IMG/VR virus record: IMGVR_UViG_3300013006_000096
Location: 1-29,827 of that record
Strand: one strand, 5' to 3'
DNA from: a virus
Length of the DNA: 29,827 bases
Shown one piece after another: positions 1 to 20,000 of the stretch (its first letter is position 1; every line of letters begins with the position of its first letter). The notes beneath the pieces are model-generated. The model ran no database searches. It had not been told where the DNA came from and saw nothing but the letters and a program-made list of their open reading frames with translations. A program made the position numbers and the translations under genes.

Positions 1-852
1 AAGTCCATCTCTAATGTATTCAGCTTGTGTATCAACTGCTTCCATGCTGGTATATAGATCCACATGCGGAAGTGTACGTATGGCATCAATAAACTCTTCT
101 AACTTCTCAGGCTCGAATCCCAAGTTGCTGTTAATAGCTAATTTTGTTTGACTCTTGCCTTGATTATTTTTAAACCATTCAATTAACTGCCAGGTGTGAC
201 CACTCATCAATGGCTCTCCGCCGGTTATTCTAAGTTCTTGGAGTGTTCGGTGGAGGTCTGTTTCCCACCATTTAAAAAATGCGTCAACATAAGGATTCTG
301 TTCTCCAAACTTGTAAAGTTGTGCGGCAGGGTGATCGTGAGTAAAATGATTCCTACCATCGCTAATCAAGCCTTGGTAAGCACCGTTGTTTCGTATATCT
401 TTAACCCATGTACTAGAGAAAGCAGGGTTGCAGTAACTACAGGCAAACTGGCAAGTACGATCAAACGCAATTTCCAAGGTACGCAAGTTGACATCTTGTT
501 CAACTGGGGTATTGTACGCATCGGACAGATCCTTTATTGGATAAATTTTTGATTTATAAACACGGTCTGATATTGAATCCTTGCCCATGTCTTCAATCTT
601 CCAACAGTACTCACATCCTGCAGGACGATCGCCTGCTAGCATTTTTTTACGATCGTCCTTTTTTTGTGCTGTATTGTGTAGCGCGGCCGGATTGATTTTT
701 AAATCTTCAACATCGATGGCATGAGCTGGTGGATGATGGCAACTGGTTGTTTGCCCTGATCCAAGCCAGATCGTGGCGTTGTACCACTTGGCGGCACAAA
801 AACTGGTGCTAATTGGATCAAGTACTGTTTTGCGGAATTCTAAATCATTCAT
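1..852 (-). CDS. Radical SAM protein with N-terminal auxiliary Fe-S motif (rSAM-1), C-terminus cut by window edge
   Basis: The frame is open from an ATG at 852 to the left edge, giving 284 codons without a stop, so the gene is partial. The radical SAM core motif CQFACSYC (CxxxCxxC) lies at about residues 134-141, followed by the SAM-binding ITGGEP motif near 209-214. Further cysteines at about 19, 38, 80 and 83 (the last two as CEYCW) come before the core and resemble the cysteine set of a SPASM/twitch auxiliary cluster, here N-terminal. The protein is closely similar to the 473-aa gene at 1977-3398, sharing the C..AKW start, NPYV-[DE]-AF and AEY-[IM]-RDGL. Its start overlaps the end of the preceding gene by 8 bases, so the two are translationally coupled. 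Radical SAM enzymes make a 5'-deoxyadenosyl radical and many modify peptides; the substrate here is unknown. The family call is firm, the role is inference. Confidence 0.85.
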   Translation of the reverse strand, partial: MNDLEFRKTVLDPISTSFCAAKWYNATIWLGSGQTTSCHHPPAHAIDVEDLKINPAALHNTAQKKDDRKKMLAGDRPAGCEYCWKIEDMGKDSISDRVYKSKIYPIKDLSDAYNTPVEQDVNLRTLEIAFDRTCQFACSYCNPAFSSTWVKDIRNNGAYQGLISDGRNHFTHDHPAAQLYKFGEQNPYVDAFFKWWETDLHRTLQELRITGGEPLMSGHTWQLIEWFKNNQGKSQTKLAINSNLGFEPEKLEEFIDAIRTLPHVDLYTSMEAVDTQAEYIRDGL

Positions 853-2002
853 TGGAATATGTGTTTACAAACTGTTGGAATCGTCTCGGGAATTCATTAC
901 GAACCTGTGTTCTCATCAGAGACAAATGCTGTTGATTGTATTTACATACATTATAGCACGACTGGAGGAATTTTGCAAGATCTTGCGTACATAAATCTTT
1001 AACTATCTCTGCTATTCGGTTAATTCGATCTTGGTGGTTATCTATTAGATCAAAGCTTTCATCAATCACATGTCCGAATGTTTTGAAACCCAAGTTCTTG
1101 ATGTCTCTATAGTAGCCACGATTTGCTACTGCTATCCAAGGATGTGCCATTGCAACAGGTTTCCAGATTTTTTCTGTTCTAAAACTATAAGGATAGGTAA
1201 ACACAGTCTCAGTAACCAAACTAAAGTAAGTGTCTACATAAGGGGCAGGTGTTAAATGTATTTCTCCCCATTCGTTACCAAACAGCTGGTGCTTAACAAA
1301 AGAACTATTGCAGGGTTGGTCAAGATGAGCATGATACTTGTTTATTTCGTATTCAGGAGGCAAATATTTTACAGTGTTAGGTTGTAGTAAAAGATCTTTG
1401 TTGTTATGTATTAGCTGTATATCCCTACTGTCTCCTACAGTAGTGTCAAGCCAGGTCCATAATGACTGATCTAACAAGCCTGATAAGCTAAAACTTTCTC
1501 TAAGATACTTTCTATGACTACGTGTACGGCCATTTAAAAATAAAAATTTATAAGGTTTATCAAGCTTGGTGTAGATTTTTTCACAATGTGATATTGCTTG
1601 TATGTTTTCTTCGTAATCAAGAATCTTGGGCAAAAAACTATCGTACTGCAAGCATGGCCATTCAGATGCCATGTCGCCGCCGCCAATCAACAAGACTTGA
1701 CATGACTTGACAAGATCTTCAACACCAAACATAATAACATGATCACGCAGGGTTGCAGAACCTTCTGCTGGATTGCTTAGTATGATCTGTATGCGCTGTT
1801 GTTCACCCAGTTGTTGTATCAGTGCAATATTAACACCAAATTGTTGACGACCTAATAGGTATATGGCACCTGGAATTAACTCGCCGGCTGCAATGTGTTC
1901 TTCAAGATTCCAGAATTCTGCATCTGCATATGGTTTGAGCTCGGTGTATACTTCACAAAAAGTATCTAGTACTAAATTACGACTGCCGAGCATGGTATTC
2001 AC
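845..2002 (-). CDS. Putative glycosyltransferase, GT10/exostosin-like C-terminal motif
   Basis: A 385-aa protein lying between two radical SAM genes. It has no signal peptide or membrane segment. The C-terminal half carries FLNGRTRSHR (about 155-164), then TETVF (264-268) and TEKIWKP (276-282) followed by a hydrophobic HPWIAVA stretch. This arrangement recalls the donor-binding part of GT10 fucosyltransferases and exostosin-like enzymes, where an EKI motif precedes a hydrophobic strand. I see no recognisable N-terminal acceptor domain. A GTG start at 2002 is preferred because GGTGGA lies 6 bases upstream; an ATG at 1993 is the alternative. It overlaps the preceding radical SAM gene by 17-26 bases and the next by 8, so it is part of the same operon. 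The sugar and acceptor cannot be told, and the family call rests on motifs only. Confidence 0.6.
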   Translation of the reverse strand: MNTMLGSRNLVLDTFCEVYTELKPYADAEFWNLEEHIAAGELIPGAIYLLGRQQFGVNIALIQQLGEQQRIQIILSNPAEGSATLRDHVIMFGVEDLVKSCQVLLIGGGDMASEWPCLQYDSFLPKILDYEENIQAISHCEKIYTKLDKPYKFLFLNGRTRSHRKYLRESFSLSGLLDQSLWTWLDTTVGDSRDIQLIHNNKDLLLQPNTVKYLPPEYEINKYHAHLDQPCNSSFVKHQLFGNEWGEIHLTPAPYVDTYFSLVTETVFTYPYSFRTEKIWKPVAMAHPWIAVANRGYYRDIKNLGFKTFGHVIDESFDLIDNHQDRINRIAEIVKDLCTQDLAKFLQSCYNVCKYNQQHLSLMRTQVRNEFPRRFQQFVNTYSNE

Positions 2003-3398
2003 ATTCGTTCCACCAGCTTCGCATTTCTGGGAATGTCTTTAAAAAATCAGTGTCACGTCTGCGATCATGTTCGTTAAAGAACCTATAAAAATCTGCTTTG
2101 CATTGTGACAAATACGCAGTATCTAATTTTTGTCCATCACGCATCCAAGCAATGTCTCTATCTAGTCTAGCGATCTCGTAGTCCTTGAATCCGTGAAAAG
2201 GGTCTTCTAGAGTTTCAGTTTGTTGTAGCATCCATGCCCAGACCTGTTCTAGTTTATCCGCATAGCTTTCGGGCAGTAGTTGCAGACTCTGCCATGCAGG
2301 TTGTCTTAGCACAGGAGTATCAAACCACACACGTTGATATGTTTGACTGTGTGTTTTTCTCAATCCCAGGATACCAGCAAACAGTTTGTCTAAACTGGTC
2401 ACGCCCAGATTGTTCATGGTCACAATAAATGTGATTGAATTACGATAAGGAATCTCTGTTAGGAATTGATTTACACGATCCCATAGCAACTCAAAGTCCA
2501 AGCCATCTCGCATGTATTCAGCTTGTGCGCCCCAGCCATCTAAACTGATGTATTGCATGAAGTGTTCCAATACACCTTCTTGGCATAGATCTTTGACATA
2601 GGCTTTGTACTTTTGCCAAGACTTTTCATCTACACTAAAGTTTGATGTCACATTCAAATGCAAGTCTGGCTTGGGGTTGGCCAACACATAGTCAAACACT
2701 TGATAGGTATTTTTGTCCAACAAGGGCTCGCCACCGGTCATGCGGAAGTGTTGCAGTTCTGGGTACAGCGTAGGCCACCATGCCCAAAATGCTTCCACAT
2801 AAGGATTGTGCTCGCGAGCAGGAATAATACGGCGATTGCCAGTAAAATGATCCATGCTATTATGCGGTGTGGAAGTGGGATATGGTCCTAATCTCTGTGC
2901 TTCATCTGCCCAGGAACTGCTGAATTGCGGAGAGCAATAACTACATCTGAGATTGCAGGCATTGTTGAAATTAACTTCAACATAAGAAGGAATAACATTG
3001 TCTTCAGAACCAGTGCTTGTTTTTATTTTTTCAAAGTCTACTGCGGCCCAGGGTTCGCCAGATCTATAATGGCGATCACTTAATTTATCGTTGTCCTCCA
3101 TGTTCCAGCAGTACTGACATTCGCTAGGACGTTCATTGCGCAACATGATCTTGCGCTGTTCTTTCTTGTAGGGAGTATTGTGTAGTTGACTGGGATTGTC
3201 TGCTAAGCCTTCAATGGGTATCTGATGCAAAGGAGGATGATAACAACTGTTGTTGAGCCCAGTGGCTAAATGAAGGCTAACTTGTTTCCATTTGGCTAGA
3301 CAAAGAGCAGGACCCAGTTGAGCTTGCATTTGCTCAGCAGAGTTCATGAACTTGCTCTTGTTGTTTACTGTTTCGTCACCTTTGTTATTGATATTCAT
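1977..3398 (-). CDS. Radical SAM protein with N-terminal auxiliary Fe-S motif (rSAM-2)
   Basis: A complete 473-aa radical SAM protein. The cluster-binding CxxxCxxC is CNLRCSYC at residues 148-155, and the SAM-binding TGGEP lies at 221-225. Before the core, cysteines at 33, 52, 94 and 97 (CQYCW) form a second set like that of a SPASM/twitch auxiliary Fe-S cluster, placed N-terminal instead of C-terminal. The middle part (EAFWAWWP, ISLDGWG, AEYMRDGL) matches rSAM-1 almost residue for residue, so the two are tandem paralogues separated by a glycosyltransferase-like gene. The ATG at 3398 overlaps the preceding gene by 14 bases and has no clear ribosome binding site. A second ATG at 3347 would align better with the start of rSAM-1. 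The substrate is unknown; SPASM/twitch relatives usually act on peptides, so peptide or protein modification is the leading inference. Confidence 0.87.
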   Translation of the reverse strand: MNINNKGDETVNNKSKFMNSAEQMQAQLGPALCLAKWKQVSLHLATGLNNSCYHPPLHQIPIEGLADNPSQLHNTPYKKEQRKIMLRNERPSECQYCWNMEDNDKLSDRHYRSGEPWAAVDFEKIKTSTGSEDNVIPSYVEVNFNNACNLRCSYCSPQFSSSWADEAQRLGPYPTSTPHNSMDHFTGNRRIIPAREHNPYVEAFWAWWPTLYPELQHFRMTGGEPLLDKNTYQVFDYVLANPKPDLHLNVTSNFSVDEKSWQKYKAYVKDLCQEGVLEHFMQYISLDGWGAQAEYMRDGLDFELLWDRVNQFLTEIPYRNSITFIVTMNNLGVTSLDKLFAGILGLRKTHSQTYQRVWFDTPVLRQPAWQSLQLLPESYADKLEQVWAWMLQQTETLEDPFHGFKDYEIARLDRDIAWMRDGQKLDTAYLSQCKADFYRFFNEHDRRRDTDFLKTFPEMRSWWNECEYHARQS

Positions 3399-4497
3399 AA
3401 TTTTTTAATACCATATCTTGAACTACTGATTTAAACGGCAATAGTTCTAGCAATTTTTCGTTTCTCATTTTGTCTAATAGCATAATATGATTCAATGTGT
3501 GTTGGAACATAAATGAATTCACGTTGTTTGTGACTAAATCAATCATCTTTAAAATAATTGTTTCGTCAATTTTGTATTTTTTAAGACTGTTGATTTTATC
3601 TAGTGCTAGATCTTTAAGAGTATCTGGTATTACATCTATTGAAAGATATGTAGGACCGGTGAGTATAATTGGCGAAAGATCTAAATTATGACGTTGCGCA
3701 AACTCACAGAGTTCTTCAACAAACCAAACGTTTAAAATACTTATCACCGGTGATAATTTAATTTTGATGTTTGACTCTGATATTGACAGAAGTTCTAGAA
3801 TATTTTTTTCAATATCATTCCACGTGCTGCCAGATCTAATGTATTCTAAAGGTTCACCTACTGCATCAATGCTACAAAGAATGTCAACACGTTTAAATTG
3901 TTTCCAGATTTCAAAAATATTTTTATCTTTGAATTTTAACAAAGTAAGATTGCTGTTGTACAGCAATTTGATATTGCGAGATTGCCCTGACAATATCAAT
4001 TCTTCTAGTACTTGCCAATGGTCTGCATTGGCCATTGGCTCGCCACCGGTAAAATACATCCAATGTAAAGAGTCAGTTAGCAACAGATGTTTATACTCGT
4101 CAATTGATTGATGCTGTAAAGTTATATTGTATTCCAGCTCTTTGGCCCATTGGTTACTAAAATGCGGGCCACAATAGCGACATTTTAAATTACAAAGATT
4201 GGTATTTCTAATGTCAACAAACTGTAATCCAGTGGCATCAGGGTTTTTAATGTTGTTAAACATTTGCCGATAGCTTGGAATATTATTATGTTCATTGGAA
4301 TTGCATTTTTGGCAGGCAGCAGGTCCAAAGTGTCCGTCGGAGGATTTCAAGTCAGCAAATCTATCAGTGCGTGAAATAACCGAAATTGGTTTTAAATATT
4401 CTGGATCAATCAAACAACATGGTCCAATTTTCCCATTGGGAAAAATAGTAACACCGTGATCAACAGCGGCACATGTCCATTTTTCTTTGTTGTGCAT
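3385..4497 (-). CDS. Radical SAM protein with N-terminal auxiliary Fe-S motif (rSAM-3)
   Basis: A 370-aa radical SAM protein, the first of the three to be transcribed. With the ATG at 4497, cysteines lie at about 9, 27, 28, 62 and 65 (CQKC) in an N-terminal auxiliary-cluster-like region. The core CNLKCRYC follows at about 102-109, and the FTGGEP motif ends near 154. A later LEYIRSG resembles the AEYxRDG of the other two. It is more diverged from them, shorter and more AT-rich in codon choice. An in-frame TTG at 4515 would extend it by six residues and overlap the upstream gene, but AAGG there sits directly against the codon, so I prefer the ATG. The C-terminal third is rich in Leu, Ile and Lys without a recognisable domain. 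The fold is clear; the substrate is not visible. Confidence 0.87.
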   Translation of the reverse strand: MHNKEKWTCAAVDHGVTIFPNGKIGPCCLIDPEYLKPISVISRTDRFADLKSSDGHFGPAACQKCNSNEHNNIPSYRQMFNNIKNPDATGLQFVDIRNTNLCNLKCRYCGPHFSNQWAKELEYNITLQHQSIDEYKHLLLTDSLHWMYFTGGEPMANADHWQVLEELILSGQSRNIKLLYNSNLTLLKFKDKNIFEIWKQFKRVDILCSIDAVGEPLEYIRSGSTWNDIEKNILELLSISESNIKIKLSPVISILNVWFVEELCEFAQRHNLDLSPIILTGPTYLSIDVIPDTLKDLALDKINSLKKYKIDETIILKMIDLVTNNVNSFMFQHTLNHIMLLDKMRNEKLLELLPFKSVVQDMVLKNYEYQ

Positions 4498-4508
4498 ATT
4501 TGAAATGT

Positions 4509-5435
4509 TTACCAACCTTCTTGGCTGCGTATAACATCGATTTCTCTAGTTGAGATTCCTTTGTTGTGCCAATTACTACGGTAGTGGTGTTTAAAAAATT
4601 TACTTGTGGGTGCGTCAAACCATACCATTGGCAAGTCTAACTGTGTGCTTAATTCTTCTGCCACACGACTTAATACACTGTCAGGTTCATGATCTTTTAC
4701 AGTTTCCCATAGTTCTTCCAAGGACGCAAAATCTTGAACACTACAGTGATCCCAGTCAGTTAACATGGTCATGTACGACCCCATACGTGCGCCAGCCATG
4801 CTCCAAATGCCATGCTCTGCATCTCGTCCAACATTATGCCAGATAGTTAAATTGTCTAGATTTCGTTGATGCACACGATCTTTAAATTCTGCTACAGTGG
4901 GTTTTTTACCTTGATTCAGGCACATCTTTACACCTTCACGGAAGCCGGCACGCCAAGCATGAAATGCATCTCCATTGGGATAGGTAGTCGAATAACAATC
5001 ATACATGGCCCAGTACAACGGGTCAAAACAAAACTCCACTTGTGTTTCTGCACGGCCGTCAGTGGCTTCGTGTGTGCGCATGCGGTCGACAAATGTACGT
5101 GTCCATGAACTCAATCCACCATTGCCATACATCAAGCCATTGATTTCATTGCGGGCTCTCCAGCGGAACACAGCCGATTCCCATTGTGCGTCTGGGAGTA
5201 CAAGTGTTTGGTTGAAGAATTCTGGATCGGGCATGTTGTCCCCGTCAATCAGGATAAAACGTTCTGTATCGCTAGCGGCAGCGGCTGCTTTGTGTGCGGC
5301 ATCTGACCCTTTAACACCATCCACACGTTTGGCCCAAGGCACCATGTTGCGAATTTTAACCCAAAATTCTTCCTTCTGTGGCTCGTCGTAAGTTAGGTAT
5401 ATGCAGTCTAAATCTGCTACATCAATCCGATTCAT
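4509..5435 (-). CDS. Putative GT-A-fold glycosyltransferase-like protein
   Basis: A 308-aa protein. Its N-terminal 70 residues look like a nucleotide-sugar-binding Rossmann half: a short hydrophobic strand (CIYLTYDEP), then FILIDGDNMPD with an acidic DGDN at about 64-67 in the place of the DxD metal motif of GT-A enzymes. An Asn in the last position makes the catalytic call uncertain. An aromatic-rich middle follows (FRWRARNEINGLMYGNGG, then WAMYDCYS). There is no membrane segment. It overlaps the upstream 116-aa gene by 14 bases, with GGAG about 11 bases before the ATG, and its TAA is 11 bases before the rSAM-3 start. It may transfer a sugar onto the same target as the neighbouring radical SAM enzymes, which is inference; it could also be a non-catalytic GT-A-like fold. 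Confidence 0.55.
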   Translation of the reverse strand: MNRIDVADLDCIYLTYDEPQKEEFWVKIRNMVPWAKRVDGVKGSDAAHKAAAAASDTERFILIDGDNMPDPEFFNQTLVLPDAQWESAVFRWRARNEINGLMYGNGGLSSWTRTFVDRMRTHEATDGRAETQVEFCFDPLYWAMYDCYSTTYPNGDAFHAWRAGFREGVKMCLNQGKKPTVAEFKDRVHQRNLDNLTIWHNVGRDAEHGIWSMAGARMGSYMTMLTDWDHCSVQDFASLEELWETVKDHEPDSVLSRVAEELSTQLDLPMVWFDAPTSKFFKHHYRSNWHNKGISTREIDVIRSQEGW

Positions 5436-5772
5436 TTGATCTTAAACTCCATTTAATATGAGGATACGTTTCGTCAACAACAATGCTGACATTATGTTCA
5501 TAACAGGGTACTCCGATATCATCGGGTACCAACTTGTTAATAATTTTTTTTGGTGCCACATGCACTAGTTTATTGTCAATTACTCGAACCAAAAATGAAC
5601 TACGTGCGTATGTTTCTGCATCAATGTCTATATAATTACCAGACAACTCTTCCATGTTGTACGATAGTGGCTCACCTTTTTCATCATAATACAATCTAAA
5701 AAAGATAGGTGCAGACTCTGGCAACGGTTCAGCCCAGGCCTTCCAGAAGTTGTCTTCTGTTTCACTCTTCAT
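5422..5772 (-). CDS. Small protein of unknown function (116 aa)
   Basis: I do not recognise this family. The 116-aa product is acidic at the N-terminus, opens with FWKAWAEPLPE, and continues with alternating hydrophobic strands (IFFRLYYDEKGEPLSYNMEE, NYIDIDAETYA, SFLVRVIDNKLVHV). This suggests a small beta-rich fold with no membrane segment, signal peptide or cysteine motif (a single Cys). It sits in a run of overlapping genes: 11 bases shared with the gene before and 14 with the gene after. That and its intact coding frame support it as real. Position between a Cys/His small protein and a glycosyltransferase-like gene links it to the modification module by context only. Confidence 0.7.
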   Translation of the reverse strand: MKSETEDNFWKAWAEPLPESAPIFFRLYYDEKGEPLSYNMEELSGNYIDIDAETYARSSFLVRVIDNKLVHVAPKKIINKLVPDDIGVPCYEHNVSIVVDETYPHIKWSLRSNESD

Positions 5773-6064
5773 CTGGCACTAGCCCATTGCTGTGTTTGTC
5801 AGATATTTTTTCTACATCCTGGAAAATACGTTTTTCTTGAGCTGTTAATTTATCTTTGTGTGTTTTTCTTGGATTACCACACACATAACACTCTGGATTA
5901 CCACAATCCATGGCATGATGCTTGGCCAATCGATGTGGTTCTTTAACCATTTTATCTTTGTCAGTCAGGCCATGTGCTTTGGCAATTTTAACTTGTTTTT
6001 TGACTTTTGTTTCGTCATTAAAACGTCTTGTGGCTTTTTTAATTTTATCGTCTGAATCACTCAT
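5762..6064 (-). CDS. Small basic protein with Cys/His zinc-type motif
   Basis: A lysine-rich protein of 100 aa. After a charged N-terminus with many Lys and Asp, it has HHAMDCGNPECYVCGNPRK. This is two His followed by C-x4-C-x2-C, with a duplicated CGNP turn that looks like a zinc ribbon or knuckle able to bind nucleic acid or protein. I associate this CGNPxCxxCGNPRK signature with small hypothetical proteins of T4-like marine phages, from memory and without a search. An ATG at 6076 would add four residues, but the ATG at 6064 has GGAG 6 bases upstream and forms an ATGA overlap with the stop of the preceding gene, so I chose it. Function is unknown. Confidence 0.75.
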   Translation of the reverse strand: MSDSDDKIKKATRRFNDETKVKKQVKIAKAHGLTDKDKMVKEPHRLAKHHAMDCGNPECYVCGNPRKTHKDKLTAQEKRIFQDVEKISDKHSNGLVPDEE

Positions 6065-6801
6065 GTTAATCTCCATTCTTTGTTATTGTAATGTACAAAA
6101 CCATATTGTGCTATTGTGTTGATTCGTAAACCGGGGTCAGTATTTTCCCACACTAGTTCATTGGTCCAATTATCAGTGTGCGTGGGGATAATACCTTTTT
6201 TCATATGTACAATTTGCGGGCCATGGCCTGCAGGCAATGTGACACATTCTGGGCCTAGTATGGTCGCTGCCATTGCATACACTACATCAGTTGATGGTTG
6301 CTCCTCTGGGAACTTCAATAGCGTTTTAAAGTCTTTCCAGTTTTCAAATATATCACGCACACATTGAAAAAACTCCTGTGCTGTTTTACTAAGTCTCCAG
6401 TATGTAATTGCATTGTATACATCGGGCAAGTTGTTGGCATCAAATATTTTTCTGTAGCGTCTATCCGTACCAGGCTGATCATAAAAGTCTCTACAACCCT
6501 GACTGATCACAACATCTCTATGTTCAAACAAAGTCCACCAGTGATCCACTGGGCTGGCAGCAATCATGTCGGCTTCTAGTTTGATAGTTTGTCTATAGGG
6601 ACTCACAGCAAACAGTTGCCAGTCGTTGGCAAAGCCACCTTGGTCACCGTGCGGTAACATGTCAGTGGTCACAATGGTTATGTTGGCGTCAGGGTGCCAT
6701 GCACGAATACTATCAGCCAGTTGGGTTGCACAACACACATAGTCTATTGTATCTGTGTTAAATGCAGGAATCACATATCCACGTTCAGCAACAATCGGCA
6801 A
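6061..6801 (-). CDS. Putative GT8-like glycosyltransferase, paralogue of the upstream gene
   Basis: A 246-aa protein from a proposed TTG start at 6801. GGAGA lies 6 bases upstream of that TTG, and the protein then begins just before the first strand (RGYVIPAFNTDTIDYV), matching the N-terminus of the upstream paralogue. An ATG at 6852 would add 17 residues and a 68-base overlap, with no family support. The segment SPYRQTIKLEADMIA aligns with the TPYDQTLVLDADFVV of the upstream gene, so the metal-binding DxD of GT-A/GT8-type enzymes appears here as EAD (about 76-78). The C-terminus has HGPQIVHMKKG, a His placed where GT8 enzymes often have a late metal ligand. It overlaps both neighbours. The sugar and target are unknown; loss of the first Asp might mean altered or lost activity. 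Confidence 0.65.
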   Translation of the reverse strand: MPIVAERGYVIPAFNTDTIDYVCCATQLADSIRAWHPDANITIVTTDMLPHGDQGGFANDWQLFAVSPYRQTIKLEADMIAASPVDHWWTLFEHRDVVISQGCRDFYDQPGTDRRYRKIFDANNLPDVYNAITYWRLSKTAQEFFQCVRDIFENWKDFKTLLKFPEEQPSTDVVYAMAATILGPECVTLPAGHGPQIVHMKKGIIPTHTDNWTNELVWENTDPGLRINTIAQYGFVHYNNKEWRLT

Positions 6802-7594
6802 TGATTTTCTCCAGATGTTTTTTACCCATAGCATGAAAGTCCATACCTGCAAAACTCAGTTGTTTTGATTTGTTGGTGTCATCCACGTATTCTAATATGT
6901 ATGATTCTAAACTAGGGTCGGTGAATTTGCTCAAAGTCACACCAGGCATCACGCTGAGTAAGTCCCAGGGTATTGCGTCTATTTTTGAAGTGTGTCCATT
7001 TACAATTCCCAAAGCAATGCTCAGTGCAAAATCATTACGATAATTTGATTGTCGAATCCCGTATAAATTTCGATAGTGCTGCCAGTTTGTTTTGATCATT
7101 TGCATACAATCAAAAATATATTGTGCAGTATTCGACTTGCGAAACATCATTACAGTGGCCCAGTGCATGGGCATGTTGTATTCACCAAATGTATTTAACC
7201 CTGCCATCAATTTACCAGTGGCCATGTTGAATGCATTTTTATGACACACAAAGTCTTGTGGCATGTTTAATACTTTTTTTAACATATCGCCGGCAACAAC
7301 AAAATCAGCATCTAGTACCAGTGTTTGATCATAAGGTGTTAGCTCATAGGCATTCACGCGACCTGCATTGTGCCAGGTCACTGTTTGATTGTAATCTTCA
7401 AAATAACGTGTGCCACCTGTCTCGGGCTGGGCATGAATCACTTGATCAAAAACATCAGTGTTACACTCACCGTCGGTGATAATACTAACCGGAAGATTTA
7501 AATGTCTACGAATATTTTTAGCCGACCATTCAGCCATGGCTACATAATCTGTTTCTTCATTGTTGAAGGCAAATATCAATACGCCTTGAGTCAT
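6785..7594 (-). CDS. Putative GT8-like glycosyltransferase (DAD motif)
   Basis: A 269-aa protein that opens directly with a strand (GVLIFAFNNEETDYV) and has TLVLDADFVV with an intact DxD at 95-97. This is the Mn-nucleotide-sugar-binding arrangement of GT-A enzymes, most like family GT8. A pattern of ADF, then a GLN/EYN/MHWATVMMF region, fits the acceptor side of such folds. A late FHAMGKKH may supply a His ligand. There is no membrane segment, so it probably acts in the host cytoplasm. Its ATG overlaps the stop of the previous gene as ATGA, and its own end overlaps the next gene, a diverged paralogue (tandem duplication). The family call is by motif; substrate unknown. Confidence 0.68.
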   Translation of the reverse strand: MTQGVLIFAFNNEETDYVAMAEWSAKNIRRHLNLPVSIITDGECNTDVFDQVIHAQPETGGTRYFEDYNQTVTWHNAGRVNAYELTPYDQTLVLDADFVVAGDMLKKVLNMPQDFVCHKNAFNMATGKLMAGLNTFGEYNMPMHWATVMMFRKSNTAQYIFDCMQMIKTNWQHYRNLYGIRQSNYRNDFALSIALGIVNGHTSKIDAIPWDLLSVMPGVTLSKFTDPSLESYILEYVDDTNKSKQLSFAGMDFHAMGKKHLEKIIADCC

Positions 7595-7896
7595 CTTTTT
7601 TTGCTTTGTTCTGTGTACTCAATCAACCAAGCATTCATTTGCTCTTGCCAACGTTGTTGTGCTGCCAGTTCAAGTTCTCTAACATCAACCTTTACCGGGG
7701 TATCATACAGATCTAGCAACACAGCCGTTTCGTCTGGGCACACTGCTAACACAGTTAACAATTCAGGATCGGCTGACCACATGCCTCCGGCATAGGCAAA
7801 GATCATTCGGCCTTGATATTTTTCTTTAAGTAAGCGTCGTGCAGTTGCGTGATCAAACCTTGCCCTGGCATGTGCAACTAATTGTTCAGTATTCAT
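7591..7896 (-). CDS. Small conserved-type phage protein of unknown function
   Basis: A 101-aa protein and the first gene after the terminator. The N-terminal half is helical and basic (HARARFDHATARRLLKEKY). A short aromatic-glycine turn follows (MIFAYAGGMW), then an acidic and hydrophobic strand region (VLLDLYDTPVKVDVREL) and a C-terminal helix rich in Gln and Trp. It reminds me of small hypothetical proteins next to tail genes in marine T4-like phages, from memory only. No catalytic motif is visible. The ATG lies only 7 bases after a perfect TATAAT and has no ribosome binding site, so its mRNA may be leaderless. Its stop overlaps the next start as ATGA. Confidence 0.72.
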   Translation of the reverse strand: MNTEQLVAHARARFDHATARRLLKEKYQGRMIFAYAGGMWSADPELLTVLAVCPDETAVLLDLYDTPVKVDVRELELAAQQRWQEQMNAWLIEYTEQSKKR

Positions 7897-7903
7897 AGTG
7901 ATA

Positions 7904-7932
7904 ATTATACAGGAATTTTTGATAAAAGTAAA
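7904..7932 (-). promoter_or_regulatory. Probable promoter of the left (modification) operon
   Basis: On the minus strand a perfect TATAAT lies at 7909-7904, with TTTACT 17 bases upstream (7932-7927), 4 of 6 matches to the sigma70 -35 box. The -10 box also reads TATAATTA, one mismatch from the T4 late octamer TATAAATA, so either early or late transcription is possible. The predicted start falls at or next to the ATG at 7896. The -35 box overlaps the foot of the terminator stem. Confidence 0.55.
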
Positions 7933-7950
7933 GGGCCCACGGGCCCTTTT
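7922..7950 (-). terminator. Intrinsic terminator of the virion operon
   Basis: A perfect palindrome of AAAGGGCCC and GGGCCCTTT (7930-7949) with a 2-base centre (effectively a 4-base loop) is followed on the minus strand by ACTTTTATC. It lies 20 bases after the stop of the 329-aa virion gene and ahead of the 101-aa gene, so it ends the virion transcript. The opposite direction also has a short T run, but no plus-strand gene is present to need it. Confidence 0.85.
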
Positions 7951-7969: not shown

Positions 7970-8959
7970 TCAAGCAACTGATGATGCAATAGTTGGTGTG
8001 CCCCATGCCGCACTAGTTAGATAAGTGCTACTTGGTGGGAAATATGTCACAATAGTACATGGTGCTGTGCCTGGTGTAGCGCCAGAACTTGCTGTACCAC
8101 CTGAAATAGCGTCACTAGAACCTGCGCCCGAGCCGCCTGGATCAGTCCAGGTTGATGTTATTACCAATTGTGTACCTGTGCCTGCTGTTTTGGCAGCGTG
8201 GTTAATGAATTGTCCTGTGTATGGTGCGGTATCTGCAAATTGTTTATAGATGTTGGTGTCGCTTGTGCTGAGGTTGTACCAACCAGTTGTGGTTGTCAAA
8301 ATAGTTGGTGTTCCTGTACCGCCTACTTTGGTTGTACCTGTGTATGGAGTAGCGGCAATAGTTTGTGTGCCCAATGCGCCGCCACCTGTGATAAAGATAG
8401 CGCCACATAGCGTAGTAGCCAAGTCATTCCATTCTGCATCAGCAAGTTGACCAGTTGAGGATTTGCTGGTTTGTACTTTAATGCGCCCACCTGCGTTGAA
8501 GAAATAACGAGCGGCATTGGCACTGGCCCAGGTAACAGTTGACGTAAATGTGATTGTCCAAGCACTAGCACCAGAACCTGTGCCGGTTGTTTTGCTATTG
8601 CTACCACTGATTGTGGTATATTGTGTACCACTGGCAACAGCATTACCGCGATTGGCATTGATGTTTGTAATATCAGTATTCAAAGCAGCCAAGATAGTAA
8701 TAGTATTACCAGCTGTGGGGTTTGCTCTACTGGTAATACTAGTACCAGTATGGCTGGCCATGGATGAAATCTTGCTGTTCAGCGAAGACCATTGTGTAGC
8801 TGTAATAGTTGCCAGTGCGGCAACTGTGTCAATGGTAGTTTCACCATAACCAAATGTAGTGACGCCTGTGGACCATTGTGCGTTTACGTTTGCGGCATTG
8901 GTACTAACAAACCCATTATAGTCTGTTGCTAGTATTGTGCTTCCTTGTGAATATGTCAT
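7970..8959 (-). CDS. Probable virion structural protein, Ser/Thr/Gly-rich
   Basis: A 329-aa protein very rich in Ser, Thr, Gly, Ala and Asn with few charged residues, a composition typical of exposed beta-rich phage appendage proteins. The N-terminus (MTYSQGSTILATDYNGF) resembles small virion proteins next to tail fibres in aquatic myoviruses, from memory. A central region has TGTGSGASAWTITFTSTVTW and RYFFNAGGRIKV, suggesting a beta-sandwich. The start is fixed by AAGGA placed 6 bases before the ATG. It lies 12 bases after the tail-fibre-like gene, in the same late transcript, and is the last gene before the terminator. A role as a receptor-contacting or decorating protein is inference. Confidence 0.65.
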   Translation of the reverse strand: MTYSQGSTILATDYNGFVSTNAANVNAQWSTGVTTFGYGETTIDTVAALATITATQWSSLNSKISSMASHTGTSITSRANPTAGNTITILAALNTDITNINANRGNAVASGTQYTTISGSNSKTTGTGSGASAWTITFTSTVTWASANAARYFFNAGGRIKVQTSKSSTGQLADAEWNDLATTLCGAIFITGGGALGTQTIAATPYTGTTKVGGTGTPTILTTTTGWYNLSTSDTNIYKQFADTAPYTGQFINHAAKTAGTGTQLVITSTWTDPGGSGAGSSDAISGGTASSGATPGTAPCTIVTYFPPSSTYLTSAAWGTPTIASSVA

Positions 8960-8971
8960 TCTAAATCCTTA

Positions 8972-10252
8972 TTAGTTAATTTTGACAATTGCTTCAACAA
9001 TGCCTTGGTCTGTTGTTAATTTATCAACCAAGGAACGTCCAATGACGTTAAATGCAGTAGCTTCATTTATTTTGGCAGCTCGTGCCAAACCGTTACCAGC
9101 TGACACCAGGCGATCGCCCTTTTTAACTGTGCCAACAACATTAACAGGCACACGTCCTGTCATAGCAACAGGAGGATGTGTTTCGTTGGAACCGGCCATG
9201 CTGTTCATCAAATAAGCTGCTCGTGTACTTATGACACCGAACACACTTTCGCTAAGTTCAGCAGTAACTTTGGTAATTTCTTTGTCTCCACCTAGTTGCA
9301 CAACTGTGCCGGCTTCTAACACTTCATCTGCATGGAAACGTTCTGCAACGTCAGCATATTGAGCAGTGATATTTGTACCACTAATAGTGCCTGTGGCACC
9401 ATTGATTGTCATAACAGTAGTAGGTGTACCTGCAATGTTAACGTTGAACGAAATATTTCCATTGGCTGTTTGATTGTAAATTATACCATTTACGCCTGTT
9501 ACACCAAGTCTCAAGTCTTGATTAGCACCAACAGACAATCCTGTGTTGTTTAATACACCAAATGTACCAGTAGTGGTTTCGGCTGCGTTTTTTAACAAGA
9601 AATCTGTAGCGCCATATCCATCCAATGATTGGGCTTCTGTTGCTGTGCCTTGGAACAATTGCGGAATAGTAGCAATTGTGGTAGCAAGTGTAATGCCTGG
9701 GCGAACTGTTGTAAATCCAGAAATTGCCGGACTAGGAGTATAAGCAGTGTCTTTGCTGACAACTCCAACAACATCACCTGACACATACAATACAACTGCA
9801 ACGTGCGAAGTTGCGGCATTATCTGTAATTGTTTCAACAATGGCACCGGACTTGCCTGTTCCGGGAGTAAACTGTGGTCCAACCAGCAACCAGACACTAC
9901 CTGTCCAAACTTTTAACTGTGCATTAACTGTGTCGTACCATAAATCGCCAATGACATTTCCAGTTGGTGCAGTACTAGAAGCAGTGGCAGAAGAAATTGT
10001 TTTCCAGCTTGCGCCGTTGTACACTTTCATCAGCCCGGAGGCCGAGTCCCACCAAAGTTGTCCTGTTAAAGGAGCACCCGGGGCTGTGGTATTAGATGAA
10101 TTTTCCAGCAAGTGGATGAAGTTTTCATCTAAAAATTCGCCGTAGCCAGCGTAGTTTTTACCAACCAGTACCATTGAACTGGCAGTGTTGATAGTACCGT
10201 CTGCAATTGTTGCAAATATGCTACCATCGGTTAAATTAATTGTATATGACAT
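8972..10252 (-). CDS. Tail-fibre-like virion protein with C-terminal tip/chaperone-like domain
   Basis: A 426-aa protein directly under a late promoter. Residues 64-86 and 102-124 are two copies of a W-rich motif (GQLWWDS...LMKVYNGASW and GDLWYDT...LKVWTGSVW) common in phage fibre proteins. A Gly/Thr/Asn-rich shaft follows, with SLDGYGATDFL near 209-219. From about 298 the C-terminus (QYADVAERFHAD, EAGTVV, GVISTRAAYLMN, TGRVPV, GDRLVSA) resembles the C-terminal domain of marine phage fibres related to the Peptidase_G2/intramolecular chaperone type. Whether it is self-cleaving cannot be seen. AGGAT sits 4-5 bases before the ATG. A likely role is host recognition or a fibre base; the exact place on the virion is not known. 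Confidence 0.72.
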   Translation of the reverse strand: MSYTINLTDGSIFATIADGTINTASSMVLVGKNYAGYGEFLDENFIHLLENSSNTTAPGAPLTGQLWWDSASGLMKVYNGASWKTISSATASSTAPTGNVIGDLWYDTVNAQLKVWTGSVWLLVGPQFTPGTGKSGAIVETITDNAATSHVAVVLYVSGDVVGVVSKDTAYTPSPAISGFTTVRPGITLATTIATIPQLFQGTATEAQSLDGYGATDFLLKNAAETTTGTFGVLNNTGLSVGANQDLRLGVTGVNGIIYNQTANGNISFNVNIAGTPTTVMTINGATGTISGTNITAQYADVAERFHADEVLEAGTVVQLGGDKEITKVTAELSESVFGVISTRAAYLMNSMAGSNETHPPVAMTGRVPVNVVGTVKKGDRLVSAGNGLARAAKINEATAFNVIGRSLVDKLTTDQGIVEAIVKIN

Positions 10253-10274: not shown

Positions 10275-10282
10275 TATTTATA
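10275..10282 (-). promoter_or_regulatory. T4-type late promoter TATAAATA
   Basis: A perfect minus-strand match to the T4 late promoter octamer, ending 22 bases before the ATG of the 426-aa tail-fibre-like gene. With the usual late spacing the transcript would start near 10269, leaving a short leader that still holds the AGGA ribosome binding site. It lies in a 50-base gap between genes. Confidence 0.8.
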
Positions 10283-11073: not shown

Positions 11074-14000
11074 TTATTGACCCCGTAAAAACCTTGCTGC
11101 CTGTGTGTTGGTATCTTGTAGTGCAACACCATTGCTTGGCGTACCAACGCCAGGCGCATACCAAGTAACACCCTGGCGTACAAGTATTGTAACTTCAACT
11201 CCGGCGGGCGGAGCAGTATCAAATACCACTACAACAGGATTATCAAGCGTGATTGAGTACCCACTGGTTACCAATATGCCGCCTACATACACTTCAACTG
11301 CTTCATCAATGGTTGTGCTATCTTCATTGTCCAGGTCAATGTTCGACGCAATAAATTCAGTCTGCGTACCGTTTGCTAGTTCGCTTGTGCTGAGAATATA
11401 GTTTTGATACTGCACAGGCAACAAGTTTCCTCGACTGATATTATATACATCTGCGCCAATGGTGTGATCTGCCGCACCTGTTCCTGCTGTTCCCCGGCGC
11501 AATCCGCTGACAGTGTTAGCTTCAAGATTTAGATTTCTATACATGATACGTTCACCATTGATTGTTAACAGTCCCCAAATGTTGTTTGGTAAATTTGGAA
11601 TGTTTAATGCTGACGCATCGAACACATGAATTGTGTCATCTGTATCACTTAGATCTTGAGTCAAGTATGTGGTAGTTGCAGGCGTAATGCGGTATGTGGC
11701 TTGTACTCCTCGCATGTCTTGGAATATACGGAATGCCATTGCTTCTGGAGCAACACTATTAGTAAATTCTGTGACCATTACTACATCATTGGCATTTAAA
11801 ATATAACCACCTGGCAATATAATTTCATTGTTTACCAAAGTAAATCCGATGTTCACAAACAAACGGTGACCATTTAGTGTTACAATTAATCTGTCAGGAT
11901 CAACGTTTGCTTGTTCCAGTACCAAATCGTTTAGATAAACTGTCTCTGTTGCTGAATAGTCGTATGATCCAGGTTCATTGGTTGTTGTTCCAACATCATA
12001 GTCGGTGCTACTATACCCTTCGGCAAATGTTTTTAATCCGCCTATAGGACCAACAAACACTTGTGTTAAAATATTTTGCTGACGAGTATCATTGAAACTT
12101 GTAACTGCAATTACGTCACCGTTTGATGGAACTAATCCACCATACTGATTGAACAGCAGTTGATTTCCAGTGATTGTTGCTTGCGAGTTTGTTGTCACCA
12201 CAACTAGAATAACTTCACCATCGGACGGTGTAGAATCAAATATCACAGCACGAGGAGTATACTGATCGTATGGCTCAACTGTAAAATTGATTCCTAAAAT
12301 CTGCGGAATGTCATTGACATACACACGTACTTCGGTGTCAGCAATAAGCTCTTGGCTGAATCCTAATCTTTCAGGCAATAGATATTGACTGGTTCCGTCA
12401 GCATAATATTCAGCCGATGCAGGAGTTCTAACACGAAGACCATTTACTGTAACATACGCCATGTCAGGATTTGTATACGCCATGCTATTGGTTAGTGTGT
12501 ACACATAGTTTCCACTGGTACCAATGATATACTGTGTGACGGGTACAGACCAGTTGTAGTTTACCAATGTATCATCGATGGTAGTGGGCCCAATTGCCGC
12601 AATCATTAGGTAATCTGTAATGTCGTAAGTGTTACCAAATGTTATCACAGTGGATATGGTGTTATTAACCGCAAATGTATAATCATTAATTAAATTGCCA
12701 TTTACAAAAATAACAAAGTTGTTGATCAACGAATATTGCACAGGCACTATCAATGAATTACCAACTTCATCTCCGTTATAAGAACGCTTGAATAACTGGT
12801 TTCCGCCACCAATTTGGAACAATGTAATTACCACAACATCACCAATATTGGTATTACCACTGTTGATTAGTGTAATAGTAGCATCTGCCCAGGACACTGT
12901 GTAATCAACATCTAACACCAAATCTAGCCGTGTGTTTTGATTTGTAACTAGCAATGTTGCTGTGACAGGCTCTATGCCTGCAAAACTAAATGTTTCTGTC
13001 AGTGATGCTGCCGAGAATTTAATAACCTCGGATCGGAAACCGTGTCCGTCACGTGCCCAGTCAGCGCCGGGTGTGGTGTACACACGTAGGTCAAGTGTGT
13101 CGAATTCGCTACCAGGAACAAGTTCTTCTGGAGCATAACTTGAATATGTGTCGATGTATCCGCCGCCTTCAGGATTGATACTGGTTGGGCGTGTTCCTAG
13201 ATAAGCATCGTTATATGGACTTTCGTAGATGGCATCCAATATACTTGTATCAAATGTTGGCAGGCCGTCTGGAAGGTATGCCAAGTTGTCAAACGGTTGG
13301 CTGTCAAATGGATTTATATCAAATCCAGGACCAACGTTGTAGTTAACTCCGTACATCTGCACACCTGGATATTCTACTCCGTCAATCAACAACGGCAAGC
13401 TTAATCCAGGTTGGTCAGCAGTAGGATTATAGAATCCCATTGTACGGTTAACGCCGCTCAATGTGCTGGCATCAACTATGAGCCATTGGTCTGGATCAAA
13501 TGTAGAACTGTTGACACTGGATCCGCTGGTGTTGTTGGCTTCCCAAACACGATTCAAGTATCTAACTTGTGTTCCGTTGACATAGGTAACATTGGGTTCC
13601 CAGTCAACTAAATCAGATGCGTATTGATATCTGTCATATTTTATTGTGGTCTTGAACTGACGAATCAGTGCATTTGTCATTGTTACCGCTGCGGTGGCAT
13701 CTGTACCGTTGCCGCCAGTGAGTGTCAATATAGGCGTGGTAATATAGCCACTCCCGGGGTTGGTAATAATAACACTAAACAACTCTCCGGCGCCGTTGAT
13801 TACCGCAGTAAATTCTGCAGGTGTAACACAATCACCTGTAACTGTAATCACTGGTGGATCTTGATAACCACTTCCGGGGTTGGTAACCACAACATCTGTC
13901 ACAGTTAACGTGTAGTTGTCGTACCAATATTGCCACGGAGTAGTTGCCCATATAGTTGAATCAGCTGGTGTATCAGCATTGAAATTTGTGCCACTATTGG

Positions 14001-17000
14001 CAGTTGATTGTGTATAAGGCAGCAATACCGGAGCAATAAATTGCGGCACTGTTAATGTAGCGTCCCAGAACGCCGGCACATCAAAGTCAGTCAATGCTCC
14101 AGCAAATATATCATTACCATTGTATGACAAATTAAATTCACGAATTTGTGTATGGTAAGGCTTGACTTCTTGTATGTAATTTAATACAAAGTCTTGATTG
14201 TCTTGTCGATATGACTGATATGGCACTAGGTTACGAATCTTGTGGTCAACATCAATTAAACTTGTTTTCTGCAACCATTCTGGTGAGGAGAACTCGCTCA
14301 TCACATACTCAAACACCAATATCAACGAACGATTGCGTTCAATTGCCAATTCATCAACAAACAATTGTTCGTTGATGGCTTGAATAATTCTTCGGGTTTC
14401 AATAATTGGTTCTTGGTCAAAATACTGCGCATCAAAAACTTCTTCATCAAATCCAAAGTTGCCTGCGGTATAATCCCATAATTTATTACTAAATCTAATT
14501 GTGGCATCTTGTGCGCCAACACGAGTCCAGTCGGTGTCTGTTCGTTGATAAATTTCAAATTTACCAGTACCGGGCACGTTGGATACTTTAACGCTGGCGC
14601 CTATGGGCGCTGTGGTTAGTGTTACTCCTGATAGTCCAGCATAGTTTGGCACGGTGGCAACAGGATTTATTGTGCTATTGTAGCCAGTCATGTACCAGTC
14701 AATGTATGACCAATATTGACGAGTGTCATAATTTTGTACACGAATCAGCACCAGGATCTTGCTGCCAACTGAGTTTCCTTCTGTGACTTCGTAAATTGTC
14801 CACAGTCCTGATTGAGTTGTGTCAGTCACAACCAGATACCTATAGCCATATGGTACCAAATCTAAGTTTTGATAACCTAGTTCTGTAATGGATGCCACAC
14901 GCTTGTTCCAGGCATTAGAGCTTGCTGTTGGTTCTGGTTCGCTACTGTTGAGCAATGCAAAACTTTTTGTTTCAGCAACCGGATACTGTGCTAAAATAGT
15001 ATTGGCTCGGCCAAGGTAGTTTTCGAGTGCACTAAATCGATCAACAAACATACTTTGTCGTGGACGAAATTGCACACCATATCGCATGGCAGGGCTTAAT
15101 CCTGTGTCTGGCACACTGGCACCAACACTGTTAGCGCCACAGAAACTGTCTTGTAATTTTAAATATAAATTACCACTTAGGAAACTATCTGCACGGTCTG
15201 CGGCAATTAATTCATATTCTTGGTGAACATTGTCGTCGTTGACCATACGATCGTATTCAATATGGAGTATAGTTTCTTGAGCACTGATAAGATCAAGCAC
15301 ATTATAGATTGCTACTGTGCTGGCATCAAGTGGAGCCAAATAAGCAATACCACTGGCTCTTGGATATTCAATGTAATTGGCAATGGCAGTAGTGCTGAGT
15401 TTTTTGCCTGCAACTGTATTCACTGTTGCAATATTACGAACCCAAAAATAGTATCGTGTGGCAAATATATTTTCTGTGTTTAATTCAGCGCGAGTTGTGT
15501 AACTCAACACACTCAACGGTGTTCCAGGACCTGTGTAATTTGCTGGCAGGACATCACTTTCTATCCATTGGTATATGTCAACTCGACTGCCTGGGAAAAC
15601 TTGTCCCCAACGACGGCTGGCATACACAATGTTGTCTTGATTTGGATCAATGAATCTGACTAAATTGGTATCCCACCATATTTGTCCAACTTGCATTGTG
15701 CCCCACGAGTTACCAACATTGCGTACAGGTCCATTGTTGTAGTTTGCTGGGTCAACGGCGCCAATATAGTCAATATTTTCACGGGCAACGCCTAATATTT
15801 TTCCTTGTAGGGGATTAAAGAAATCCAAGTAACTTGTAATGTCTGATTCAAGTTTGTTGTACATGTACACAGAATTCAACAAAGAAACGTCAACCACCGG
15901 AGTCTGAATATGTTTAACGGTCCAAGCAGGTGTTCTTGTTGGATTTTCAAACACAAGTACTCTTCCGTAATTGGCAGTTGAGTCTGATTCCAGCTCACTG
16001 CCAGGTGAGCCTATTAATAATCTTCCAGTAACGTAGCTAATAGCTGTTCCGTATTGATCTAATTCGTATGTGTTTGTATTGTATAACTGTTGTCCAAATA
16101 CAAATTTACCAGGATTTGATATGGTATCAGACGAGCTGGGCAAATAATCAAATGTATATGCCACTCCGCTTTGTGTTACTGTGGTGGAAAATATTGTGCT
16201 ACGATCGTCAAAGTATGTGGTTCCATCATCAAATGTAACTGGCTGGTACATGTTGCCGCGCGGTGCACCAACTACCAATGTTGATGCTGTGGTATCAACA
16301 CATACAGTTGATCCAAATCTAGCATACTGGCTTGGGTTTGGACTTGTAATAGTTTGAGTGTAAGGATAGTTCACAAAACCAATGTCTGTAAACGCTGTAC
16401 CAAAGGTACCGGGTAATACAGTTAATTTGTTAAAATTAAGCACTGCACTGGCATTTATAACACTCAAGGTCAGTATGCCAGAAACCACCTGCACAATTTT
16501 TCCAACTGTTGGAATATTAGTGAATGTAATAATGCCTGTTGTATTATTGTATGTGTACTGAACATTTAATTCTTGCAATACATCGTTTAAGTAAACTACA
16601 GGTGTGTAATTATTGTATTGAGAATATGTTACGCCAATATCAAATGTTTTTGTAACTCCATCAGTTGTAAAAAGCAAGTCTGCTGATGCTGTTGCAATGA
16701 CATTAGGAACGCCGACATTGCCATTGGCACTGTTGATTGCACCAACTAATCCTGCTACAGTATTGTCAGGGCTTGCTGGCACAGTAATTTCGTAGTTGTC
16801 AACACGCAAGGTATCACCTGGGGTCAACACCGGATTAGCAACAGGCGATGATATTGTTCCGTACACACGAGATTGGTTAACATTGCGTTGAACAGACCCG
16901 GAATTATTGTTTGTATTTTGTGGCGAACCAGCATAGATGCTACAATTGTTTGGACACAAATCAACAGAATATCCAAATTGCGATTGTGCAATTGCACCAT

Positions 17001-20000
17001 TAGTCTGGGTTTGATTAACATAGTCCCAGCTAGAAGTAACAGTAATTTCTTGCACTGGTTTAATTATGTTATTTTCAATTGATACAATATCTCCAACTGC
17101 CAGAGTCACCGCTGATGTTAACACAACAGCATTGCCAACTACATTAAATTCTCCGTTGATAAATTGACTTGCATCAGTTAAAAATGCATTGTTAACCAAT
17201 ACTGATACAGGTGGTTTCCAACCGGTTGGCAACGGGAATGTAGTATCTGTAATATCACTAGGCGATATTTGATATTTTAATATGCTTCGATCATAGACAT
17301 AAGTGGCTCCAGACTGGATACTGTCCACAGTTGTGTTGGGCGACCCTATGACAATTTGTCGTCCATCGGTCGATGGTGCAATACTGTATCCAAAGTTAGT
17401 TGATGCTGTGCCGGAAATTTTATCAACATATTTAAAATAAGAACTTGCAGTAACTACAACTTTGGAATCAACTGGTGGAACAGATCCTGCTTCAAATGTC
17501 ACAATTTTTGTTAAATCATCAAATGTGTAATCTATGCCAGGTCGTTGCATTACACCAGTTACAAAAATTGTAAATGCATCAATACTAGTAGCAGTGTACA
17601 GGTAAGGAGACAAATCAAACGTGGCAGTGTATATTGATGTGTCTAGTTCAGTTTCTTCAATGCGAGAAATTGTGATACGTACACCTTGAGCCGGTGGTTG
17701 TGTGAAGGCCACTGCAATATCGTTTACAGTGTAATCTACTCCTAGAGTTTTAACTGTGTCGTTAATAGTAACTTTTAATTGCTCATCATTGTCTATCACA
17801 ATATTATTATTGTAATTAAATGATGTTGTGACGCCATCGGCTACGTATGTTATGAATTGAGATTGCACGTCAACTCTGCCATAAGCATAAACTGCTGACT
17901 CTGTTGATGCACCAACATAGATCCAGCGTTCATCCAGGCTGACAACTGTAGATGCTCCAAACCCGCCGGCACTAGTGGCCCAGTCTGGTGCAACTAATAA
18001 TTGTGTTTGAACAAATTCATTGCTTGCAGGTGCACGGTACACCACAGTGACATATCCTACACCATTTGCACTAAGGCTTGCACCAATAACAGACCATGTC
18101 TGATTACCAATGTCAACCGAATTTCCAAATCCTTCTGTGTCAACTGCAGATGGTAATATCACCTGTGTTGCTTCGTATTGCGATGCCAGGCCCACCAGGT
18201 ATGGTTGTACTGCTCCACGTGGATCCTGGAATGGTACGCCAACCAATGCAGAAATATTATCAATTGACTGGGCAATGCTGGCGCCAAATGCCGAATTATC
18301 ATCAAGTGTTGGGGGAGTTATCACATATGGTGATGCAAATACATCTTGCTTTTCTAACACTTCCCATAAGTCTGATCCGTTGTTGTCAACCCAGGCCAAT
18401 GCACCAGGTACCAAATCATTGGCATATGATAAATTGTTGATATCGCTAGCTTGTGTAACACGCATGGTATCAAGATAAAATCCTAGTCCAGTCCCTGTGA
18501 TAACACTTTGGTTGTTGTTGGCAAAAACATAAGCAACAGTTAGCGTATTAGGCGACGGTGTGGTCAACACACGATATACGCCATTGAATGCATCGTTAAA
18601 GAATCGAACAATTAAAATCTGGCCTATTGTTAAATTGTGTATGGTAGAGAAGGTAACCAAACTTGTGCCATCAAGATTGTCGGCTACTCGAGTAATTCTT
18701 CCGGGTGTGCCTGTTGCACGATACACATTCCAGTCATAACTGTTGGTTTTGGCCACCCAAATACGTGTGCCATTTCCAATGTTATCTAGATCTGCCGCAA
18801 TAGTGCTTGGATCATCTAAAGAAAATACTGTTATATCAACATCATCAATGTTGACATATCCTGCACTTGGCAGCGCAGTATCTGTGATAGATGTGGTTGT
18901 TGTAGGAAGAATGTCAGGCGATGTTAACTTGTAACTTTCTCTCCAGACATTGCTCAGCAATATGCTTTGGTTAGCAATGCTTGTTTCGCCTGGAACAACA
19001 ACTTGAATAGTGGCTGGATCGCTTTGCAACAATGATTCATTTAGTTGCAATTCGTAGTAGCTTCTGTTGGCATTGGCGCCGTATGTTCCGCGAAGCACTG
19101 CCCAGTTTTCGTAAATCTGATAATCAGCGATTTCCTTACTGAGATTTGCACCTGTAAATATTTCAGCACTTAAAATAGTACCTTTGATTCCAATGAACTG
19201 CTGGTATAGATTAACTTGACTTGTATCGTCAAGGTTTAATGCAACCATGTATTGTCTAGGCTGGAATCCAATCAGTCCGTAACTTAGTAAATCGTTGTCT
19301 TGTTCAAGATTTGCTGTTTGTGTATTATAGCTATTGGCCAACTGATCTGCTTTGTTTGCAATATTTGGCAACAGACCTTTTTGTATTTTGGTATAGTCAC
19401 TTTTGACCCAGTTGGCGTATGCAAATTCAAGTTTAGGTTGAATAATTTCTTGTGCGGACCAATAGTTATTTTTGTAGTTAACAATTTCACCTTTGGCATA
19501 CTTGCGATTTGGAGCCCACAATTGAATATTGTCTTGATTTAAAATAAATCCTTGTGCATCCAGCGTGCCGTTCCATTCAGTTGTGGTCACGGCTATTACA
19601 TTAACACGATTTTGTCTTGCGGCAGTAACAGGGTTATAAATCAAATCGGCAAAAATACTAATATTGTCTAATATTACAATACTCTCGTAGTTTATAAATC
19701 TCAAATTAGCATAAGCAATGGATTGGCCGTTTGCGCTTTTTACACTAAATCTATTGTCTAGTCGTTCAATCACTAGGTCTCTTGCGTTGAATGGCAGGCG
19801 ATTTTGATTCAACATGATATTTTCAGGAGTCTGAATCAGCACATTGTCAACAACAGCGCCGGGTCTTTCTGCAATCAATTGAATTGCGGCTGGATTTAAA
19901 TTGATTAAACTATTGACAGCCCATCCTTGATTTGCCCAGTATAGAAATTCCCGGGCCATTTGTTGCCAATCAAGAGGATAGCCGTTTTCTCTGTCTTCTC

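Follow-up and report, generated by a model that had tools for sequence, protein, structure and literature searches.

A cassette of radical SAM and glycosyltransferase-like genes beside the tail genes of uncultured, mostly freshwater giant phages

The window analyzed here is the entire IMG/VR record IMGVR_UViG_3300013006_000096 (29,827 bases), whose end cuts through an array of radical SAM (rSAM) genes. Its main genes are encoded on the minus strand, from position 29825 to 1, with the baseplate and tail genes first (a gp25-like gene, the gp6-like baseplate wedge gene T15, T14, T13, T12 and T11), followed by a cassette in the order S10, G9, G8, S7, S6, G5, R4, R3, G2 and R1 (Table 1); the upstream border of this cassette is S10, at position 7896. 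The initial annotation had described three rSAM genes and a glycosyltransferase-like gene in one overlapping run, and this is what we found: the ORFs of R1, G2, R3 and R4 form a single minus-strand run with overlaps of 8–26 bases. On the tail side, T14 (window positions 11074–25203) is a single frame of 4709 aa after the gene for the baseplate wedge; for a structural protein it is unusually large, and 17% of it is Ser+Thr.

Table 1. Features of the cassette and of the adjoining tail genes in the 29,827-base window.
Feature	Description	Position	Strand	Basis
R1	N-terminal-twitch radical SAM, core array member	1..852	-	NF033640, 220 bits; 3' end lost at contig end
G2	GT-B-like putative glycosyltransferase, 385 aa	845..2002	-	AF2 model and PDB structure matches
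R3	N-terminal-twitch radical SAM, core array member	1977..3398	-	NF033640, 315 bits; orthologue conservation
R4	N-terminal-twitch radical SAM, accessory, variable slot	3385..4515	-	NF033640, 249 bits; own tree clade
G5	GT-A-fold glycosyltransferase	4509..5435	-	AF2 model; PDB match; rSAM neighbors in phages and bacteria
S6	Small conserved protein	5422..5772	-	Conserved position between G8 and G5
S7	Small protein, phrog_4499	5762..6076	-	Family present in 7 loci
G8	G9 homologue, phrog_1903; putatively glycosyltransferase-like	6061..6852	-	Profile comparison
G9	G8 homologue with DAD motif; putatively glycosyltransferase-like	6785..7594	-	Profile comparison
S10	Conserved, 101 aa, opens the cassette	7591..7896	-	Conserved position in relatives
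Promoter-like box	TGTATAAT, an extended -10 box ahead of S10	7904..7911	-	TATAA-type box in most relatives
Terminator-like hairpin	AAAGGGCCCGTGGGCCCTTT, T11/S10 gap	7930..7949	-	Stem kept in relatives
T11	Tail-fiber-like, Ser/Thr-rich; candidate acceptor	7970..8959	-	Composition
T12	Tail-fiber-like structural protein	8972..10252	-	Weak PHROG tail and structural matches

All three rSAMs of the window are members of the N_Twi_rSAM family (NF033640), with scores above its curated cut-off of 170 bits and matches covering most of the model (for R1, until the contig end). Four N-terminal Cys, the CX3CX2C motif and a GGEP motif were invariant in a family alignment of 19 rows, and the Cys motifs of R1 were read separately from its own sequence; judged by these residues, the predicted Cys ligands are present both for the rSAM cluster and for an auxiliary cluster at the N-terminus. 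To our knowledge, no substrate has been assigned to this family, whose members here, in phages, fall into five orthologous groups (R3, R1, RA, RB and RE) that stand in a fixed array. Viperin, the antiviral rSAM, was rejected as an identity, the best score being 28.5 bits against a cut-off of 180 (NF038283). Among isolated phages, only weak rSAM matches turned up, in the Vibrio phages K566 and K567 and in one marine single-cell virus, and neither G5 nor G8 had a match there.

R1 and R3, which are 36% identical, had been called tandem paralogues, and this holds only loosely. In our tree, which was built with a quick method, has several long branches and carries no bootstrap values, the phage proteins R3, RA, RB, RE and R4 each formed a single group, and bacterial proteins fell within the R1/R3 branch. 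Because bacterial proteins sit inside both the R1 and the R3 branch, the split appears to predate the phage group, which rules out a tandem duplication in phages and makes R1 and R3, on the tree topology, ancient paralogues that are found in bacteria too. R4 is not a diverged third tandem copy but belongs to an accessory family with a clade of its own, which was present in only 7 loci and occupied a variable slot; its GC content is 33%, against 38–46% for the neighboring G5, R3, G2 and R1. Hence R1 and R3 are core genes and R4 is an accessory one, and what looked like a trio consists of one accessory gene and a five-gene core that the contig end cuts.

Compared with PDB sequences, profiles of R3, G5, G8 and G9 gave nothing usable. 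The AF2 model of G5 (pLDDT 85) matched best the PBCV-1 capsid-glycosylation glycosyltransferase 2p6w (E 1.8e-4, probability 1.0); all four PDB matches with E < 0.001 were to the PBCV-1 glycosyltransferase and the remaining ones mostly to GT-A enzymes. G5 is thus predicted to be a GT-A glycosyltransferase, an assignment at fold level only because the TM scores are about 0.3–0.4. For G2 (pLDDT 90.6), the best PDB matches were mostly to GT-B enzymes, with SenB, glycogen synthase, SdgB and trehalose-P synthase at the top, but they were weak (best E 8.7e-3, TM about 0.4), so that its model resembles the GT-B fold only weakly. G2 matched no Pfam or PHROG family, and its earlier description as GT10-like, after a family of fucosyltransferases, finds no sequence match in Pfam, NCBIfam or PDB. 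G8 and G9 are homologous to each other by profile comparison (probability 98.5%); G8 had no match to a Pfam glycosyltransferase, and neither of the two could be given a family assignment.

The tail genes place the phage only distantly among T4-like viruses, as it had been labeled: with some 33% identity, the baseplate protein T15 matches jumbo phages of the RaK2, Atu_ph07 and Phosso types. Ser and Thr make up 32% of T11. In the gap between T11 and S10, the hairpin AAAGGGCCCGTGGGCCCTTT is followed by ACTTTTATC and then by TGTATAAT shortly before the S10 start. Of 67 relatives, 56 had a perfect hairpin stem of at least 6 bp, in which base changes were compensatory, and most had a TATAA-type box at a similar position (both counts include near-duplicates). 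The hairpin is therefore a likely conserved transcription boundary, and since it is kept with compensatory changes and accompanied by a TATAA-type box, the cassette probably constitutes its own transcription unit. The 50-base gap upstream of T12 contains TATAAATA (positions 10275–10282, minus strand), which corresponds to the T4 late-promoter consensus and differs from the box upstream of S10.

A scan of viral contigs with R3 yielded 183 relatives, 80 of which were kept as R3-centered loci. Their order reads T13-T12-T11-S10-G9-G8-S6-G5-(variable)-R3-G2-R1-RA-RB-(variable)-RE-X25-carbamoyltransferase, with tail-fiber genes directly preceding the cassette in nearly all relatives. G2 usually follows R3, and full-length R1 orthologues follow R3-G2 in 74 loci. 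Read from match positions, the order R3-R1-RA-RB-RE, with the carbamoyltransferase 1–3 kb further on, was found in all 17 long contigs (100–364 kb), which contain 6–15 N_Twi_rSAM family matches each. The window is therefore the left part of an array holding at least five rSAMs, and the carriers, uncultured giant phages mostly from freshwater, form a group in which the cassette adjoins tail genes. Centering the loci on T13 (those with at least 9.9 kb downstream, near-duplicates included) recovered R3 in 45 of 46 and G5 in 46 of 46, and when a G5 from a more distant lineage was the query, an rSAM of the cassette families was present in 66 of the 66 loci having enough sequence. In the latter, this was often R3, after which came either several RA-type genes with a G2-like gene or the carbamoyltransferase. 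From this recurrence, the constant part is T11-(S10)-G9-G8-S6-G5, usually with R3, and the right side differs by clade. The homologues are thus neither scattered singletons lacking glycosyltransferase-like partners nor an ordinary host operon. Together with the fixed order and a mean column identity of 80% for R3 over 24 orthologues, the co-recurrence of both enzyme types in nearly every relative bears out the proposal of a phage-encoded modification pathway. One locus titled as Rhodobacteraceae bacterium (L178) has T11-G9-G8-S6-G5-R3 plus RA-type rSAMs and a G5 that is 95–96% identical to viral contigs; it appears to be a phage contig misbinned into a bacterial genome.

The enzyme at the end of the array, seen in the relatives and lying outside the window, is a NodU-like carbamoyltransferase with both Carbam_trans domains (PF02543 and PF16861); PF02543 was present in 17 of 17 long contigs. 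Between RE and this gene, most arrays contain a conserved gene, X25 (e.g., L025:17657-18763), a weak match to which (E 6e-5) adjoins an rSAM in the bacterial locus L175. Each of the seven contigs that reach 220 kb also encodes IscU and IscA-type proteins, the IscA-type gene directly beside IscU in most; an absence from shorter contigs would mean little because those are fragments.

Bacterial genomes were scanned with an alignment of RA, a mixed rSAM alignment being too diverse for a collection scan. This returned 49 loci, many of them from Bdellovibrionota and Flavobacteriales; among contigs with rSAMs only, a prophage origin was checked for part, and L178 was left out of the bacterial counts. 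The 16 genomes considered have 5–20 N_Twi_rSAM members each, and six of them contain ten G5 homologues, eight of which have an N_Twi rSAM no more than 2.5 kb away, where chance would give about 2% (nominal p 2e-12; neighboring G5 copies are not fully independent). The genomes with such pairs are Bdellovibrionota-type chromosomes, and a NodU-like carbamoyltransferase is located near rSAMs in the loci L169, L170, L175, L185 and L207. As the bacterial G5-rSAM pairs sit away from tail genes, the pairing does not require a tail acceptor. One Bdellovibrionia MAG (G019, contig C1, 745–775 kb) packs more than ten N_Twi rSAM genes into about 30 kb.

A GT-A fold and a GT-B-like one, the NodU-type carbamoyltransferase, the place behind a Ser/Thr-rich tail protein and the pairing of G5 with rSAMs away from tail genes lead us to favor, with a confidence just short of even, the reading that this cassette, which belongs to a clade of uncultured jumbo myoviruses, builds and edits a glycan. 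The glycosyltransferases would assemble a short glycan, and the rSAMs may alter specific carbons in its sugars by dehydrogenation, epimerization, deoxygenation or C-C bond formation. Capping of a hydroxyl would fall to the carbamoyltransferase. Such a product would most likely be carried by the Ser/Thr-rich tail-fiber protein T11/T12, or else by the host surface. Sugar-acting rSAMs of the twitch or SPASM type exist, as exemplified by BtrN and NeoN. Moreover, carbamoyltransferases from contigs without modified DNA adjoin glycosyltransferases (PMC8670742).

Most characterized rSAMs of the SPASM/twitch type that carry an auxiliary cluster act as peptide maturases, which, along with the small conserved proteins S6, S7 and S10 and the tail protein T11 encoded beside the array, speaks for a different role. 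The rSAMs could modify amino-acid side chains or the backbone of a structural or small phage protein, with RiPP-type chemistry acting on a virion protein, and the glycosyltransferases could work alongside or use the modified residues as their targets. We consider this unlikely, though the foremost alternative: PqqD/RRE (PF05402) was absent from all 17 long contigs in a search to which the control genomes responded, RiPP-maturase cut-offs were passed by none of the window rSAMs, and no precursor with a Cys-rich or repeat core turned up. If the cassette acted instead on the O-antigen or capsule of the host, against superinfection or receptor binding, as has been proposed for pelagimyophage glycosyltransferases, its probable status as a separate transcription unit, the related gene sets outside phages in Bdellovibrionota and a neighborhood logic like that of the pelagimyophage host-recognition cluster with its GT8 genes and rSAM cassettes (PMC7029224) would all be in keeping. 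Yet the fixed place directly after the tail-fiber genes fits modification of the virion at least equally well, and we regard an action on the host as rather improbable.

Glycosyltransferases are also agents of phage DNA hypermodification, in which a hydroxymethyl-pyrimidine would be glycosylated or carbamoylated. For a related carbamoyltransferase from a phage, the product is 5-carbamoyloxymethylcytosine (PMC8670742). A thymidylate synthase/hydroxymethylase (PF00303), to which 9 of 14 controls responded, was found in none of the 17 long contigs, and because of this lack of a homologue a role of the cassette in DNA modification is very improbable. A search for Tet_JBP gave no match in the phage contigs and its controls were silent too. 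Returning to a glycan as the product, a bolder formulation, possible if doubtful, would see the phage array as an assembly line in which five specialized rSAMs, glycosyltransferases and a carbamoyltransferase yield glycans of a new class, edited as well as carbamoylated and displayed by the virion or on the surface of the host, using families that Bdellovibrionota employ for their own surface.

Phages with many rSAMs, and cassettes of rSAMs with glycosyltransferases, are already known. In the T4-like marine virus TARA_ERS488813_N000010, 12 rSAM genes are accompanied by Fe-S assembly genes, the same combination within one phage as here, and the part of the source available to us describes no cassette architecture (PMC5332604). 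The host-recognition cluster of pelagimyophages shares the layout in which glycosyltransferases and rSAM cassettes come after tail-fiber genes; in contrast to the present cassette, it is hypervariable and has freshwater members without rSAM (PMC7029224), whereas the phages studied here, a group related to RaK2 and Atu_ph07, keep a constant five-rSAM core with G5 and the carbamoyltransferase. The latter has the same two Carbam_trans domains as NodU/TobZ-type O-carbamoyltransferases and the phage 5hmC carbamoyltransferase (PMC8670742), but adjoins rSAM and glycosyltransferase genes and lacks the thymidylate synthase partner of the 5hmC system. The Bdellovibrionota clusters resemble the phage arrays in their number of family members, some of which have G5 or a carbamoyltransferase close by; they differ in being chromosomal, without tail genes, and with R1- or R3-type proteins in only some. 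In the open-access literature, we found no description of the fixed jumbo-phage cassette of five rSAMs, glycosyltransferases and a carbamoyltransferase, or of its link to Bdellovibrionota.

Virus-encoded rSAM chemistry has seldom been given a function. A fixed cassette of five rSAMs that is kept throughout an abundant group of uncultured phages, joined by Fe-S assembly genes of the phage and by a glycosyltransferase that recurs as a partner, provides a concrete system for the role of N-terminal-twitch rSAMs, and it may reveal a new modification of the virion or of a surface that shapes phage-host recognition in freshwater.
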